A stretch of 30,927 nucleotides of DNA, taken from the IMG/VR virus record IMGVR_UViG_3300048672_000207, positions 1 through 30,927 of that record; one strand, written 5' to 3'. The DNA is from a virus. The position numbers were made by a program, and so were the translations under genes. Under the pieces are notes generated by a model. The model did not search any database. It was not told where the DNA came from and saw only the letters and a program-made list of their open reading frames with translations. Shown piece by piece: positions 3,564-11,170 of this stretch (position 1 is its first letter; every line of letters starts with the position of its first letter).

Positions 3564-4166
3564 ATGGCTTTAACACGTTCAGGTCCCTTAACCCGAAATC
3601 CTCAGGTTGTAGCTTTGGGACTGGCTCAGATCCGTGTAGGAGTGGCGGCAACTAACATCGCTAATACCGGTGCAGCTTTACTTGCCGCGGCTTCGATCGG
3701 TGCTCTAGCCAACACAAAGTTTACAGGAAAGACGGATTATTGGAAATTGGAATCTGGGTTCCCCCTTCTGGAAGATATGTCCCTGCCCATCAGGGAGTCT
3801 TGTATTCTTGAATGCGGGTTCAAAGAAATTTCAATGGCCAATCTCCAGCTTGCCCGAGGTATCGACCCGTCTGATGAGTATTCGGACACAAACATTGCTC
3901 TCGGTGGTCTCGTTGCCCCCGAGTTCGTCCGTATGGAAGCAGTGTACACGTTCCCGGATAACCTCAGTCAGATGGTCATCATCTTCCCCAGAGCCAACGT
4001 CGTGAGTTCGATGGAAATTGATCTCAAGGCAGAGGACGCCGCAGTTGTTCCAATTACGTTTGAAGCGAAACGTGCGGACTCGGGAATCACGTCAGGAGGT
4101 AACTCCGCGTGGGATGCGATGCCCTTGGGTTCCATCATCTTCCTAACAGGAGCAAGCATGGTGTAA
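3564..4166 (+). CDS. Putative major tail tube protein
   Basis: 200 residues, ATG at 3564 with an ideal AAGGAGG (3551-3557), the strongest binding site in the region, as expected for a high-copy structural protein. The sequence is mainly beta-strand with short Ala-rich stretches (ALLAAASIGALANTK), then LLEDMSLPIRESCILECGFKE and MEAVYTFPDNLSQMVIIFPR, ending in SIIFLTGASMV. It lies directly before the tail assembly chaperones and tape measure gene, the canonical place for the tube subunit. A hairpin 24 nt after its stop may set its expression apart from downstream genes. Identity is from context, size and beta content. Confidence 0.65.
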   Translation: MALTRSGPLTRNPQVVALGLAQIRVGVAATNIANTGAALLAAASIGALANTKFTGKTDYWKLESGFPLLEDMSLPIRESCILECGFKEISMANLQLARGIDPSDEYSDTNIALGGLVAPEFVRMEAVYTFPDNLSQMVIIFPRANVVSSMEIDLKAEDAAVVPITFEAKRADSGITSGGNSAWDAMPLGSIIFLTGASMV

Positions 4167-4240: not shown

Positions 4241-4720
4241 ATGGACGAAGACAAAAGCATGAATCCCGATATTACCGATATTACTTACGGGAAAAAAGAA
4301 TTGAAAACCCTTGCATTATATCCTCTCTCTGTTGGTGACCAGTTCAAAGTAACGAACATGATCACAGAAATCGTAAAACAATTGGTTGAGAACAAGGGAG
4401 CCGTCGGAGACTTTGCTTTTATGCAATCAGTCATGATAGCTCTTGAGAAGAATCTAGGAAAGATTCTTTCTTTGGTAGCGGATATTGAAGAAGCCGAAGC
4501 CAATGATATTGTGAATAGTTTAACCAATACTCAGTTGGTTTCCATCATTGAGGTCATCTGGGCAGTAAATTATGAGCCTGCATTAAAAAAAGGTCAGGAC
4601 CTCTTCGATCGGGGGAAGCAACTATTTGCTTCGAGGAGGTCGTCTCCGAGTTCCTCCAGTGCTACCCCCAGTACCGACTTGAAGACATTTACAGAAAATC
4701 CTACCGAAAAGGTGGGATAG
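4241..4720 (+). CDS. Tail assembly chaperone, short form (G-like)
   Basis: 159 residues. The ATG at 4241 is preferred over the ATG at 4235 because GGAG at 4229-4232 is 8 nt from it but only 2 nt from the other. The protein is helical (VTNMITEIVKQLVENKG, FMQSVMIALEKNLGKILSLV, AEANDIVNSLTNTQLVSIIEVI) with a Ser-rich, probably disordered tail (RRSSPSSSSATPS). In siphoviruses this protein and a longer frameshifted form bind the tape measure protein and load the tail tube around it. A -1 slippery site lies at codons 115-117. The identity follows from position, helical content and the frameshift arrangement. Confidence 0.75.
   Translation: MDEDKSMNPDITDITYGKKELKTLALYPLSVGDQFKVTNMITEIVKQLVENKGAVGDFAFMQSVMIALEKNLGKILSLVADIEEAEANDIVNSLTNTQLVSIIEVIWAVNYEPALKKGQDLFDRGKQLFASRRSSPSSSSATPSTDLKTFTENPTEKVG
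4585..4641 (+). promoter_or_regulatory. -1 programmed frameshift site with stimulatory stem-loop
   Basis: The heptamer A AAA AAA is at 4585-4591, read in the G frame as (tt)A AAA AAA GGT. The -1 frame has a stop at 4573-4575 and is then open without interruption to 4983. Six nt after the heptamer, 4598-4608 (GACCTCTTCGA) can pair with 4631-4641 (TCGAGGAGGTC), 11 bp including one G-U. A nested or competing hairpin, 4615-4621 with 4626-4632, is also possible. Slippery site, spacer and stem match the established pattern of -1 frameshift signals. Confidence 0.85.
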
Positions 4721-4983
4721 CTCTTTGTCAATTGACGATACTTTATGAGTTTGCAGTAGAGCGGAAAGTCCGTGATATGAAGTTTTCTGCTGTACTGCAT
4801 GGGGCAGATCCAAAAGAGATTGAAGATGCGGAAATGCCAACACCCAAAAATATCAAAGATAATCTGCTATTCGGAGATCCGGCCGACTATGCGAACATGC
4901 CCGAGGATACGAGAAAAGAACTGTCTGAGAAAATGAGGGCTAAGTATTTCAAGTTTGCTGGGGTAAAAGACGATGGCAGATGA
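4591..4983 (+). CDS. Tail assembly chaperone, frameshift extension (T-like part of GT)
   Basis: This reading frame is joined to the preceding gene by -1 slippage at 4585-4591, giving a G-T fusion of about 247 residues (117 from the G frame, then 130). The extension reads EVVSEFLQCYPQYRLEDIYR, then KGGIALCQLTILYEFAVERK, then KFSAVLHGADPKEIEDAEMP, and looks like real coding sequence well upstream of the first possible internal start (TTG at 4732, no good binding site). In lambda, the GT fusion bridges tape measure protein and tail tube subunit during assembly. The frame ends at 4983, overlapping the tape measure start by 11 nt. Confidence 0.8.
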   Translation, partial: RSGPLRSGEATICFEEVVSEFLQCYPQYRLEDIYRKSYRKGGIALCQLTILYEFAVERKVRDMKFSAVLHGADPKEIEDAEMPTPKNIKDNLLFGDPADYANMPEDTRKELSEKMRAKYFKFAGVKDDGR

Positions 4984-7900
4984 AACTAAAGAATTGGGGT
5001 TGGGGGTACTATTCCAAGCCGCAGTTGGTAACTTTGCTAAGGATCTTGATCTAGTCAAGGAACAACTCAAAAAGGTTGTCACTGACATAGAGGCTTTAAA
5101 CAAGACAGCGGCGGAAGGTGCTGATAAGGTTGCGAAGGCTCAAGCTAAAGCCGCTGAAGCCGCAAGAAAAGCCGCTGAAGAGACAAAGAAATCTTCGGGA
5201 GAAGCAAAAGCAGGAGCAGAGGCTGGGGCCAAAGCTCAGGAAGCTTTAGCTTCTGCCACCGAAAAAACCACAGCCGCTTTAAAAGAACACGGTCGTAGTT
5301 TAGCTCAAGTCCGAACGGATATGCAGGGCTTGGCGGCTCACACCACTTCACAGATTGCCGCCTCCAGAATGTCTGGAGATGTCTACGAATCCCTTAGTAA
5401 AAAACTGAAGTCTGCTTCCGGGGAGACTATACAATACCGAACAGCTCTTGCTGGAGCCGCTGTAGAGGCAGGGACTTCCACTATTCGTTTTAACCAATTG
5501 AGTGGAGCCCTTCTAGCCAATGAGAAAACCCTTCTTCAGACAGAGGCCGCTTTTGGTAAAGTAAGAGCCCAGTTTGGTGCAAATGCTTTGCCCAAAGATT
5601 TGAAAGATTGGGCTACCGGCGTTGACCGTCTGAAGTTAGCTCATGCCACTCTTAACGGAGAACTCTTTAAAGCAAATGGTATCGTTATTGATACAAAGTC
5701 CAAATTCATGGACTTTCAGAGAACGATATCCACCCTCAAAGAAAACTTTGGGGACAGTGCTTGGGCCGCTACAGAAATGGATAAACGACTTGGCTCTTAT
5801 GTCAAGACCATTGCTCAAGCTAAAACAGAGTTAGCCAACTACACAAGAGATCAAATACCTTTCAATAAGTACATGACGGAAGCTTCCAAAGCTGTCGAGA
5901 ATGCTTCCATCAACATGAGCAAATTGGGGTTAGCTGGGGAGAAATGGGCGGCTGGTGTAGACAAAGGATCTGTAGCCACAGCCTTCATGAACAATCAGCT
6001 TATCAATGCCAATGGCACTTTGCTTCAAGCTGGTAAGACTTTTGCCCAGACCGAGCAGGAAGTATCTAAGATAGAAAGAACCTTTAAGAAATTGGGAGCT
6101 GAAACCTTCGGGGAGATCAGGTCTCAATTAGGAACCACTATCACTTCTTTGTCCGACTACAAGAACGCTTTGCAGACAGCTTCGGACAAAGGGGTAATTG
6201 CTCGGACATCCATTGAAAATCTCAATAAAGTTCATGCAGAACTCAGCAAAATTGTTGGGCTAAGTGCTACCGCTCATACTAATTTAGCAGAGTCCGTGGC
6301 TAAAGGTGGTCTGTCTGTCGAGCAGGCTGTGAGTGCAGGAAAGAAACTTGTAGCCAATCATCTTGATGCAAAAGCCGCCACAGAAGGATATGCTTCTCAA
6401 GTAACAAGACTATCGGCTCATTACCAAGAGCTTTTGACTTCTTCCACTTCTTATGCCGAAAGTGCTAAGAAAGTGGTATCGTCCATGAAGTCCGGGTCCG
6501 ACGGAATGTATGTTGCTAATGAGGAGCTGAAGAGACTTAATGCCCAGTTTGTTGCTTCTAAGAAGGAGATAGAAACCTTCAACACAGCCGTTAAAACCTT
6601 AGGGGAACAATCTCCTAAGACAGCTTCTTTTATCAAAGACATAACGGCTCAAGTGGATAAGGGGTCTTTGTCTCATGTAGAAGCCACAAAGAAAATCAAT
6701 GAGCATTCTGCGGAACTCAAGAAGCTGGGGGTAGAAGCTAATAGGGTTACAGGATTCTGGAATAACTTAAACAGCAAGCTTGTTGGAGGGGGTGCCGCCG
6801 CACACGCCGCTACAGATTATATGTCTAAGTTAGGGCAGGCTGTGGCAAGTCTAGCGGCGTGGATTCCAGCCGCTCTTATTATCGGGGGGTTTACTCAAGC
6901 TGTAACCGGAGCCATTGCCGCTATAAGTGATTTTGATCAAGCTCTCAAAAGCTTGCAAGCTATCTCCGATGGTACTGAAGCTGAAATCTCTTTGTTAGGA
7001 AAGGAAATGCTTAAGGTTTCCGATCAAACAAAGTATTCGGCTTCCGAGATTGCTAAAGGGGCTATTTACATAGCTCAGGCTGGTTTTACTGCTGGGGAGT
7101 CTTTGCAAGTCATATCCGCCGCGGCTCGTGGTGCTCAGGGAACTCTGGAACCTCTGACTACCGCCGCAGATTTGCTCACCACTGTTTTGAGAGCTTTCCA
7201 TATAGATGCAAGTCAATCTGCACAGGTCATGGATATGTTGGCTATGGCCGCCAATAAATCTAAGACAGACCTTGAAGGAATGAAGGTTGTCTTTAACTAC
7301 TTAGGACCTGCCGCTTACTCTGCTGGAATAAAGCTAAACGAAACTCTCGGTACGATCATGGCTCTGTCCAACGTAGGTATGAGAATGTCCACAGTTGGTA
7401 CCAGTTTGAGACAGGTTTTCATCGGACTAGAGAATCCAAGTGCAAAACTGAAAGCCGCTCTTAAAGAAGTAGGAATGACTGTAGAAGATTTGAGTGTACG
7501 GAAGTTAGGGTCTGATGGTAGACCTCAAGGACTCGTTCCTGTTCTTCAGAATTTAGACAAAGTGGTCAAAGGTAGTCTTACAAACTCGGTGCAGTTCTTT
7601 AATGTAAGAGCAGGTAATGCGGCTCTTGTTATCTCCCAAATGAATGAGCATGTGGCCCAAATGATCGAGTTTACTCGGCAGTATGGAGCCGCAGCCGTAA
7701 TGGCAGGAACACAGTCTGAAGGTATGGCTGTGAAGATGGCTACCTTGAGCAACCAGTTCCAAAACTTTCTTATAAGGTTAGCCGAAGGTGGACCGACAGA
7801 AGCTTTCAAGTTATTGCTTGATGCGGCTAAAGCCGTGATAAGCACTATTGATTTCTTAGTCAACAACACCTTTACAAATTTCTTGCTAACCACAGGGCTG

Positions 7901-10900
7901 ATGTATGTAGCCATAAGTCAGTTAGCTTCTATTCTCAAGTCTGTTGGTGCTTCTTTAGCCGCATGGGCTTTGGGAGCCGGAGCTTCTGCGGAAGCAATAA
8001 AATTGAGTGGAGTTATCAGCGGTCTAAGTGCCGCTTGGTCCAGACTTGTGCCTATTATAGTAAGTTCTGTGACAGCCATGGCCCAGGCTGTTGTTCAATT
8101 CATAGTAATGGCTTCTCAAGTGAGTGCTACCACAGGAATAATTAATATTTGCACAAGTGCGTGGAATGCTCTAACAGCGGCTTTCCTGAGAAGTCCGATA
8201 GGCTGGCTTATAGCCGGTCTTTCCGTGCTTGCGGCCATTTTGTACACAGTAGCCACCAGTAGTGAGAAATACAGCAAAGCCTTACAAGAGAACACCATTA
8301 GCTACTCCAACAATGCGGCTTCTGCCGAAGAGTATGCGTCTACTTTAAAGAGAATGGCAGAACAGCAACAACAAGGAACACTGGATACCGATGAGTATCT
8401 TGCCGTAATTCGCAAAGTTAAAGATACTTATCCGGAACTGTCCAAAGAGATGATACTTGCCAGCGATAACATAGCAAAGCAAGCAGAAATTGTAGGACAA
8501 GCTGCCAAACAGTACAGAGCTTTAGCCGATTCTTATGCAAGAGCTTCCACACAAGATTTAGTTCGACAATACATAGAAGCTGGTAAAGAGATTCAGATAT
8601 ATACGGATTATCTGAAGTCCAATAGAGGTCAGTTCATGCAATGGATGACCGCTATTGTTGTTGGTATCCCTGCTATCATAAGTTCTTTTGTTCAAATGGG
8701 AGTTGGGGTAGATAAGAGCTTTACCCAAATGACTTGGGCTATAGCCCAGTGGAAACTAGCTTGGAATACTTCCGCTGTAGAAGCCTCTAAACAAGCTTCT
8801 GAAAAAGTAGGAGCGGCCATTGTTAAGCAAATGGATCTTTATAAAGAATTGGCTTCTGTGGTTATCAACTCAAGTCAGAATATAAGGCAATCCCTGATTG
8901 CCAGTATTCCAGATAAAGAAATGAAGATCCAAGTCCAGAAACTTGTCGATCAGCATGATTTTTGGGTACGGTCTCTCAAGGACGGTGTCAGTGAGATAAA
9001 AGCCAAAGAGATTGATGCTGTAGGTTTTATGGGTGGTCTTTGGGTAGACTACTACAGGAAACAAGATGAACTGGGTCAAGCAGAAGTCGCAAAGTATGCC
9101 ATTCTTGCCAGAAAAAAGATAGATGCAGAAATAAAGGCAATGGCTAAAGGCGGAGCTGACAAAGAAGAATTGCAGAACAGGGAAATGGTTCTGCTTCAAG
9201 AACACTTCCAAAAGATGTACGATGAACGTGTTAAGCATATTGGAGAACTAGGTAAGCTGGAAGATAAGCTGTACGAAGCATCCCACAAAAGACGCAAAGA
9301 CGCTTTGGATGTTCAGCTTGGTATGTTGGATATAGCCCAAAAACAAGAGATCATGTTACTCCAGAATGAGAACTTGAAGGAAGAAGAATTTCTTACAAAA
9401 AAGGAATCTATAGAAAACGCATACTTCCAGCGAAATAAAGAAGCAATAGCCGCTAATGCTGCGGCTCAGTTAGCTTCAATTGAGAGTGTTCGGCAGGCTA
9501 AGCTTGCCCAATTGGAGATCAACAAACAGTTATTGACGGACGAGGACTTAGCAGGCAGAAGAGCGGCCATTGAGGCTGAGGCTTCCGGAAGAATGGCTCA
9601 GGCTTACAAAGAACAGTTGGCCGCTCTGAAGACACATATCGGAGAAAAGCTTACCGAGTTTAATAAGTACAAAACGGAGTATGACAAAACTTTAAAGGAG
9701 ATTGAGAAGGCTGAAGCTGACCATTTGAAAGTAGTGGCTAAAGCTAATGAAGATTTCCGAAAAGGGGAACTTGCCGCAGAGAAGGCTTACAGAAAGGAAA
9801 TGGCTGATGCAGCTGTAAATGCGTCCAAGACTATAGAGGATCTCGAAAAGCTGAAGCGGGATGCTCTACAGCTTACGATGGACTATAAACAAAAAGCCGC
9901 TGATAAAGAAAGAGAAGTAAACGAGACAATTTCTAAAGGGTATCAAAAACTTCGGGAGATTGATCTTAACGGGGAAACCGAGAATATAAATGCCAAGATA
10001 AAAATGGCTAATGATTATTTCAAAGAAGCCGCTGGAATGATCAACGGCCTTGTGGTTCAGAATAAAACTGCCGATGGTCAGTTAGTACAAGATGATCAAG
10101 CCACCCAGGTTATAAGACTTAACTTGATAAATCAGCTTATTGAAGCGGCTAAAGAAGTTCAAAAGGCAGAAGAAGGGGCTGCCGAAGCTAAAAGGAAAAA
10201 GATAATTGCGGACTTGGAATTTGAGAAAGCGGAGACAATACGGGTATCCAGTGAAAAACGGGAAGCGATTATTAAGGATTTGAATGCCATTGCTGAAGCG
10301 GCTAAAGCTAATATGGAGAATATTCGGCTAGAGATAGTTGGGATAACAGCGGCTTATAACCAGATTGCTGAAGCAATGAAGCAAGCCTTAACGATCAATG
10401 CCGATACCACTCAAGTATATACAGAGCTTCAAAAACTAACGGATCATATTTCGGCAAGAACAAAGGCCGGAGATTATAAAGTGGTGTTAGATTTTATGGG
10501 GAAGGCTTCACCAGAGGCTCCATTCTCTGATACCATCACAGAAGTAACAAGATTAATGAATGAATTTGCGGAGTTTGTGAAAGGTATAGTTGCCAAATTT
10601 ATTATAGAATTTCTCGGAGATGCCACAGGAGAGGGAACATCCACTCTGTCCTCTACTATAGCTTGGGTTGATGAGAGAATGACCAGACTTTACAATAAGA
10701 TAAACGGAATGAGGGCTGTGTTCACTATTGTTACAAGATACGTTACGGAAGGAGAAGCTCCAGATACATCAGGATCTGATACAAGTTCTTCTAGTGGTAG
10801 TAGTAGCAGTAGTTCTGATGATGGTTATGCCGCAGGAGGACCTGTTCCTGGTTCTGGTGATTCTGATTCCGTACCAGCTATGCTTACTCCCGGAGAGTTT

Positions 10901-11170
10901 GTCATAAGCAAACCAGCTGTTAGATCCGTAGGGGAAGGTTTCTTGAATTTTGTCAATAGATTGAAGAGCTTTACTGTTCCTAAGTTTGCAATGGGAGGAT
11001 CGGTTCCTTCGATGTCTGCCCGTAATTCGTCTGAAGAGGTGTTTACTCTTAACCTTCAAGCAGGAAATTCACAGATACCTCTTAAAGTTGTTGGAGACAG
11101 AAACACCATGAGAACAAATATTCGTAAGCTTGAAAAAGAATTAGGAAGAATGAGGTTGAGCCATGCCTAG
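4973..11170 (+). CDS. Tape measure protein
   Basis: 2065 residues. It sets tail length and, in known phages, takes part in DNA passage across the cell envelope. Residues ~1-600 are Ala/Lys-rich coiled coil. A TP901-type tape measure core lies at about 653-835 (DFDQALKSLQAISDG, IAQAGFTAGESLQVI, MSTVGTSLRQVFIGLENPSA). Hydrophobic, likely membrane-inserting segments are at about 622-651, 969-1004, 1076-1097 and 1224-1246. Residues ~1400-1850 are again long Lys/Glu/Ala coiled coil. A Ser-rich linker (~1935-1950) precedes the C-terminal motif GGPVPGSGDSDSVPAMLTPG, common at tape measure C-termini. ATG at 4973 overlaps the chaperone frame. No lytic transglycosylase or peptidase motif was noticed. 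Confidence 0.95.
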   Translation: MADETKELGLGVLFQAAVGNFAKDLDLVKEQLKKVVTDIEALNKTAAEGADKVAKAQAKAAEAARKAAEETKKSSGEAKAGAEAGAKAQEALASATEKTTAALKEHGRSLAQVRTDMQGLAAHTTSQIAASRMSGDVYESLSKKLKSASGETIQYRTALAGAAVEAGTSTIRFNQLSGALLANEKTLLQTEAAFGKVRAQFGANALPKDLKDWATGVDRLKLAHATLNGELFKANGIVIDTKSKFMDFQRTISTLKENFGDSAWAATEMDKRLGSYVKTIAQAKTELANYTRDQIPFNKYMTEASKAVENASINMSKLGLAGEKWAAGVDKGSVATAFMNNQLINANGTLLQAGKTFAQTEQEVSKIERTFKKLGAETFGEIRSQLGTTITSLSDYKNALQTASDKGVIARTSIENLNKVHAELSKIVGLSATAHTNLAESVAKGGLSVEQAVSAGKKLVANHLDAKAATEGYASQVTRLSAHYQELLTSSTSYAESAKKVVSSMKSGSDGMYVANEELKRLNAQFVASKKEIETFNTAVKTLGEQSPKTASFIKDITAQVDKGSLSHVEATKKINEHSAELKKLGVEANRVTGFWNNLNSKLVGGGAAAHAATDYMSKLGQAVASLAAWIPAALIIGGFTQAVTGAIAAISDFDQALKSLQAISDGTEAEISLLGKEMLKVSDQTKYSASEIAKGAIYIAQAGFTAGESLQVISAAARGAQGTLEPLTTAADLLTTVLRAFHIDASQSAQVMDMLAMAANKSKTDLEGMKVVFNYLGPAAYSAGIKLNETLGTIMALSNVGMRMSTVGTSLRQVFIGLENPSAKLKAALKEVGMTVEDLSVRKLGSDGRPQGLVPVLQNLDKVVKGSLTNSVQFFNVRAGNAALVISQMNEHVAQMIEFTRQYGAAAVMAGTQSEGMAVKMATLSNQFQNFLIRLAEGGPTEAFKLLLDAAKAVISTIDFLVNNTFTNFLLTTGLMYVAISQLASILKSVGASLAAWALGAGASAEAIKLSGVISGLSAAWSRLVPIIVSSVTAMAQAVVQFIVMASQVSATTGIINICTSAWNALTAAFLRSPIGWLIAGLSVLAAILYTVATSSEKYSKALQENTISYSNNAASAEEYASTLKRMAEQQQQGTLDTDEYLAVIRKVKDTYPELSKEMILASDNIAKQAEIVGQAAKQYRALADSYARASTQDLVRQYIEAGKEIQIYTDYLKSNRGQFMQWMTAIVVGIPAIISSFVQMGVGVDKSFTQMTWAIAQWKLAWNTSAVEASKQASEKVGAAIVKQMDLYKELASVVINSSQNIRQSLIASIPDKEMKIQVQKLVDQHDFWVRSLKDGVSEIKAKEIDAVGFMGGLWVDYYRKQDELGQAEVAKYAILARKKIDAEIKAMAKGGADKEELQNREMVLLQEHFQKMYDERVKHIGELGKLEDKLYEASHKRRKDALDVQLGMLDIAQKQEIMLLQNENLKEEEFLTKKESIENAYFQRNKEAIAANAAAQLASIESVRQAKLAQLEINKQLLTDEDLAGRRAAIEAEASGRMAQAYKEQLAALKTHIGEKLTEFNKYKTEYDKTLKEIEKAEADHLKVVAKANEDFRKGELAAEKAYRKEMADAAVNASKTIEDLEKLKRDALQLTMDYKQKAADKEREVNETISKGYQKLREIDLNGETENINAKIKMANDYFKEAAGMINGLVVQNKTADGQLVQDDQATQVIRLNLINQLIEAAKEVQKAEEGAAEAKRKKIIADLEFEKAETIRVSSEKREAIIKDLNAIAEAAKANMENIRLEIVGITAAYNQIAEAMKQALTINADTTQVYTELQKLTDHISARTKAGDYKVVLDFMGKASPEAPFSDTITEVTRLMNEFAEFVKGIVAKFIIEFLGDATGEGTSTLSSTIAWVDERMTRLYNKINGMRAVFTIVTRYVTEGEAPDTSGSDTSSSSGSSSSSSDDGYAAGGPVPGSGDSDSVPAMLTPGEFVISKPAVRSVGEGFLNFVNRLKSFTVPKFAMGGSVPSMSARNSSEEVFTLNLQAGNSQIPLKVVGDRNTMRTNIRKLEKELGRMRLSHA

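Follow-up and report, generated by a model that had tools for sequence, protein, structure and literature searches.

We conclude with high confidence that the tail chaperone genes of an uncultured phage are expressed through programmed −1 ribosomal frameshifting of the lambda G/GT type, with a conserved stem as the stimulator. The stretch of DNA that we analyzed (hereafter the window) is one whole virus record of 30,927 nucleotides. A first-pass annotation of the window had proposed a −1 programmed frameshift in these genes with the stem as stimulator, and we uphold this reading because the frame order, the slip site and a covarying stem are all conserved among related loci. The components that we observe are a slip site, an ordered pair of frames, a second frame with no independent start, and a covarying stem at a fixed spacing. 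The features to which we refer are these:

3564..4166, plus strand: putative major tail protein gene, 200 aa, named from gene order; the anchor for finding relatives
4241..4720, plus strand: tail assembly chaperone, zero frame, G-like, 159 aa (PHROG, Pfam and Foldseek matches)
4576..4983, plus strand: −1 reading frame with a T-like domain; fused product of about 247 aa (open frame, family conservation)
4585..4591, plus strand: slippery heptamer A AAA AAA (phase, and kept in relatives)
4592..4597, plus strand: 6-nt spacer (spacer lengths across loci)
4598..4608, plus strand: 5' arm of the putative stimulatory stem (covariation)
4631..4641, plus strand: 3' arm of the putative stimulatory stem, encoding F-E-E-V in the −1 frame (covariation)
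4615..4632, plus strand: 7-bp hairpin, initially proposed as a competing fold; present, nested in the stem and sharing 2 bp with it
4973..11170, plus strand: tape measure protein, 2065 aa, overlapping the end of the −1 frame (Pfam and PHROG matches)

Overlapping frames and an in-phase heptamer

Reading the sequence directly, we find that the zero frame starts at ATG 4241 and carries AAA codons at 4586-4588 and 4589-4591, and that the run of seven A residues at 4585-4591 forms A AAA AAA in the X XXY YYZ phase of the 159-aa gene. The −1 frame is bounded by TGA 4573-4575 upstream and TGA 4981-4983 downstream, and the in-phase heptamer lies within the overlap of the two frames. Slippage at this site would join 117 codons up to the slip to 130 beyond it, for a fusion of 247 residues. 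Downstream, arms GACCTCTTCGA (4598-4608) and TCGAGGAGGTC (4631-4641) can pair over 11 bp, one of them G-U, after a 6-nt spacer, and the arms of the inner hairpin, GAAGCAA (4615-4621) and TTGCTTC (4626-4632), flank a CTAT loop. The coordinates originally assigned to the heptamer, frames, stem and hairpin were in every case exact to the base. A Shine-Dalgarno-like sequence, AGGAGGT (4634-4640), sits within the 3' arm of the stem.

Identity of the gene products

The zero-frame protein matches PHROG 1442, tail assembly chaperone, with an E-value of 1.7e-5, and the same PHROG is matched by 13 of 25 aligned chaperone sequences; Pfam Phage_TAC_15 gives a weak match in 10 of the 25. A Foldseek search of viral models with the predicted structure of the chaperone (mean pLDDT 78) ranks a "Pre-tape measure frameshift protein G" second, at E 2.7e-4; several tail assembly chaperones also match, at weaker E-values. 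Searches of the chaperone against the PDB by sequence and by fold returned no meaningful match. PHROG 1442 and Foldseek, together with the weaker Pfam match, identify the first product as a tail assembly chaperone.

The product of 4973-11170 matches Pfam PhageMin_Tail (E 1.7e-37) and many tape-measure PHROGs; its C-terminal part (residues 1859-2016) also shows a weak match to an endolysin PHROG, phrog_971 (E 1.3e-4). The product of 3564..4166 has no PHROG or Pfam match, and we call it a putative major tail protein from gene order alone, a homologue being found directly upstream of the chaperone pair in related loci. The two overlapping frames, the second of them −1, lie between a major tail protein placed by its position and the tape measure gene. 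No Rfam family matches the window at gathering score.

Relatives and the order of the frames

The chaperone is too variable to recover its relatives directly: a scan for close relatives with the chaperone protein alone found nothing, and the A1 and A2 alignments proved so divergent that they could not serve for scanning. Nor did a set of 50,697 annotated phage records contain a match to the three proteins. By using the upstream putative major tail protein as the query we obtained 28 and then 80 viral loci, together with 6 genome loci, and by using the T domain we obtained 27 loci, which overlap with those found through the upstream gene. Profiles of both chaperone domains were applied to these, and 86 distinct loci contain both.

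The second domain lies in the −1 frame in all 86 of these two-domain loci, and in four loci that contain the first domain only, the locus ends shortly after that domain. Beyond the heptamer the −1 frame is conserved (A2 alignment), unlike the remainder of the zero frame, whose length ranges from 12 to 73 codons across loci. The only exception to the −1 arrangement is L140 (3144-3899), where both chaperone domains occupy a single frame; this locus lacks 38 nt relative to L139, just upstream of GGGAAAG, and may represent a real variant, a decayed prophage or an assembly error.

The slip site is kept or replaced

A AAA AAN is kept in 70 of the 86 loci, with a last base of C in 47, A in 18, G in 3 and T in 2. 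The first-pass annotation had reasoned that relatives in which the heptamer is lost while both frames persist would count against frameshifting, and 16 loci do lack A AAA AAN. In 15 of these a different 3+3 slippery motif, either G GGA AAR or C CCT TTN, occupies this position or one close to it, so we interpret the change as replacement rather than loss; only one locus, L026, is degraded. There the site (882-888) reads G GCA AAA, at which the A-site tRNA alone could re-pair well; the −1 frame is retained, as is a downstream helix, AGGCTTTC/GAAAGCCT.

A covarying stem downstream of the heptamer

We compared, locus by locus, the best helix starting 5-8 nt past the heptamer with those of dinucleotide shuffles, widening the search to 5-16 nt for five C CCT TTN loci. 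The helix reaches p ≤ 0.05 in 63 of 75 loci and p ≤ 0.01 in 46, with p = 0.01 in the window; among the 63 significant loci the spacer is 6 nt in 30, 7 nt in 21 and 5 nt in 9. The stem is not universal, since the helix is weak or absent at this spacing in the other 12 loci, which include nearer relatives of the window (L002, L005, L006, L008 and L012). In three of the C CCT TTN loci, L050, L070 and L093, the helix closes a long loop of 62-74 nt and finds its 3' partner downstream of the F-E-E-V arm that is used in most loci, as though the stem had formed anew at another position; this helix is significant in L050 and L070 and not in L093.

Covariation was assessed without fitting to structure by placing the 3' arm through the T-domain protein alignment, with the five C CCT TTN loci, whose spacing differs, excluded. 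Arms placed in this way are paired in 80.9% of cells, as against 34-52% when slid, and give 623 paired cells compared with 562 ± 5.7 after arms have been exchanged among the loci, a control that leaves the relatedness between sequences in place and in which none of 5000 swaps scored as high. Among the codon positions of the −1 frame, the third shows the greatest excess of pairing (199 versus 163 ± 4.2).

A second alignment, of 43 loci of equal loop length, came out gap-free. Here 81.4% of stem cells are paired, compared with 73.6 ± 0.9% after partner shuffling (which likewise preserves relatedness) and 33-51% when slid, and two-sided changes occur at all 11 stem pairs. The covariation score is 0.340, against 0.221 for shuffled partners (0 of 500 as high) and 0.055-0.149 for slid arms across the same 43 rows. 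Clear examples of compensated arms are GACCTGGTCG/CGACCAGGTC in L053 and GGCTTCATCGA/TCGATGAAGCC in L135. RNAalifold, run on these 43 rows with none pruned, returned no consensus pairs, we think because about ten rows do not have this exact register.

These data point to a structured RNA 5-8 nt downstream of the slip site, with support from covariation. Two checks had been set out in advance for the stem. Conservation of the heptamer and stem in related phages holds up well, both being kept across the family and the stem covarying. Folding of 4580-4660 is less telling, as the plain minimum free energy by itself is not striking (z = −1.4), and the support for the stem is mainly comparative.

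Alternative readings

The fused protein might also come from an altered mRNA, if RNA polymerase were to add or drop an A within the run; the window has seven A residues, a few relatives have eight or nine, and transcriptional slippage has been named as a possible reason for the avoidance of A7 in E. coli genes (PMC4066793). Yet the run is only six A residues long in 44 of 75 relatives (seven in 14), and in others its place is taken by GGGAAAG or CCCTTTN, sites that preserve the logic of tandem tRNA slippage and are no long homopolymer. Short runs and non-homopolymer G and C types favor re-pairing of tRNAs over slippage by RNA polymerase, and the stem at the spacing of a ribosomal stimulator and the X XXY YYZ phase of the heptamer also argue against a transcriptional origin, which we regard as very unlikely. 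It is harder still to credit that the second frame constitutes an independent gene, with a start of its own, that overlaps the first by coincidence. A perfect AGGAGGT lies at 4634-4640, but with no −1-frame start codon at a usable distance, and the first ATG, GTG or TTG of the frame, TTG 4732, could begin an 83-aa ORF, but the conserved T domain starts near the heptamer, about 49 codons before it. The independent start that the first-pass annotation had named as a refutation was thus sought and found only past the start of this domain; no −1-frame start codon precedes the conserved F-E-E region in 66 of 75 loci, among them the window. We consider a separate gene extremely improbable and retain programmed −1 ribosomal frameshifting as our reading.

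A further proposal concerns how the rate of frameshifting might be set in this phage, namely by a switch between the stem and a different fold that includes the 7-bp hairpin (4615-4632), which shares bases 4631-4632 with the stem. The sequence of this hairpin is real; the competing hairpin first suggested is not supported as a conserved regulator. The hairpin is nested inside the stem, and forming it in full costs the stem 2 bp only: locally, an 11-bp stem with a 5-bp hairpin is predicted at −21.3 kcal/mol and a 9-bp stem with the 7-bp hairpin at −20.8 kcal/mol. The predicted probability of the stem is highly sensitive to the ends chosen for the folded stretch, being 0.12 when about 100 nt are folded from 4592 (with the 7-bp hairpin at 0.75-0.85) and 0.63 at 37 °C when 4598-4697 is folded, as with a ribosome on the heptamer and the spacer covered. 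The latter value, however, rises to 0.93-0.99 at 15-25 °C, and in the same ribosome-on-heptamer setting the stem is dominant (probability at least 0.8) in 41 of 46 relatives with a good stem. The inner hairpin itself was rejected as a conserved element, with 47.8% of its pairs kept in the gap-free alignment against 33-50% in slid controls; the folding of the loop is barely above that of shuffles (mean z −0.4), and the length of the loop varies from 3 to 71 nt among significant helices. Since most relatives keep the stem while the long folds of the window differ, any such switch would be peculiar to this phage; the relatives offer it no support, and we judge it improbable that it tunes the frameshift rate. 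Folding more downstream sequence of the window does predict a larger, near-isoenergetic alternative, in which the 7-bp hairpin is joined by a second hairpin that takes up the 3' arm of the stem, with an energy gap inside the error of the model. That a switch between this fold and the stem lets temperature or ribosome spacing shift the chaperone ratio appears quite improbable. The window also holds a candidate pseudoknot, for which a helix between GGGGG in the loop (4611-4615) and CCCCC at 4665-4669 is possible; across 47 loci, pairing of the loop with downstream sequence is not above that of shuffled loops (mean z −0.17).

Proposed mechanism and comparison with known systems

We infer the slippage itself, its rate and the roles of both proteins from the arrangement described above. 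On programmed −1 frameshifting, the majority of ribosomes would stay in the zero frame and produce the 159-aa chaperone, and a minority would be paused by the stem 6 nt downstream of the heptamer. The two tRNA-Lys molecules that occupy the P and A sites on AAA AAA would then shift back by one base, pairing again with AAA AAA, and translation would resume in the −1 frame at 4591 to yield the 247-aa protein with its T-like domain. If lambda is a guide, the short form would coat the tape measure protein, the rarer long form would recruit the major tail protein, and the rate of slipping would set the ratio required for tail assembly.

The tail chaperone frameshift of lambda G/GT was reportedly described by Levin in 1993 and by Xu in 2004 and 2013, and is reviewed in PMC5009743. 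The window shares with it the order of major tail protein, G, T in the −1 frame and tape measure, as well as a heptanucleotide slip inside G; the slip site differs, being A AAA AAA in this phage and G GGA AAG in lambda, although some of the relatives carry the lambda heptamer. In lambda the ratio of G to GT is about 30:1, and GT connects the tape measure with the tail tube protein (PMC5009743). The g-t frameshifts of the archaeal siphoviruses HCTV-1, -2 and -5 involve the same gene pair (PMC5009743); these are different viruses, and the comparison made here is of the gene pair.

An A-rich X XXY YYZ heptamer followed a few nucleotides later by a stem-loop also resembles bacterial signals such as those of dnaX (A AAA AAG) and the IS3 family. 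Unlike in those systems, the last base of the heptamer is A (C in relatives) rather than G and the gene is a phage tail chaperone; a Shine-Dalgarno-like element upstream of the heptamer was looked for by eye in the window and none was seen. Frameshifting levels of 10% have been measured for A AAA AAA in bacterial cassettes, and levels of 6-7% for two tail chaperone genes (PMC3711429).

Significance

The mechanism is an ordinary one, already known in phages, and the covarying stem is its noteworthy part; we consider both the mechanism and the stem well supported. Earlier work has portrayed the frameshift as having no stimulators in certain tailed phages (PMC5009743), and a hairpin was judged relevant in only one phage cluster (PMC4066793), which is what makes a covarying stem here worthy of note. 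Its evolutionary support is unusually clear, coming from about 75 related sequences. A wide family of uncultured phages thus combines a well-supported stem with natural swaps among A AAA AAN, G GGA AAR and C CCT TTN and with one fused locus, and it offers a natural series in which to study the trade-off between slip site and stem in holding the ratio of tail proteins.
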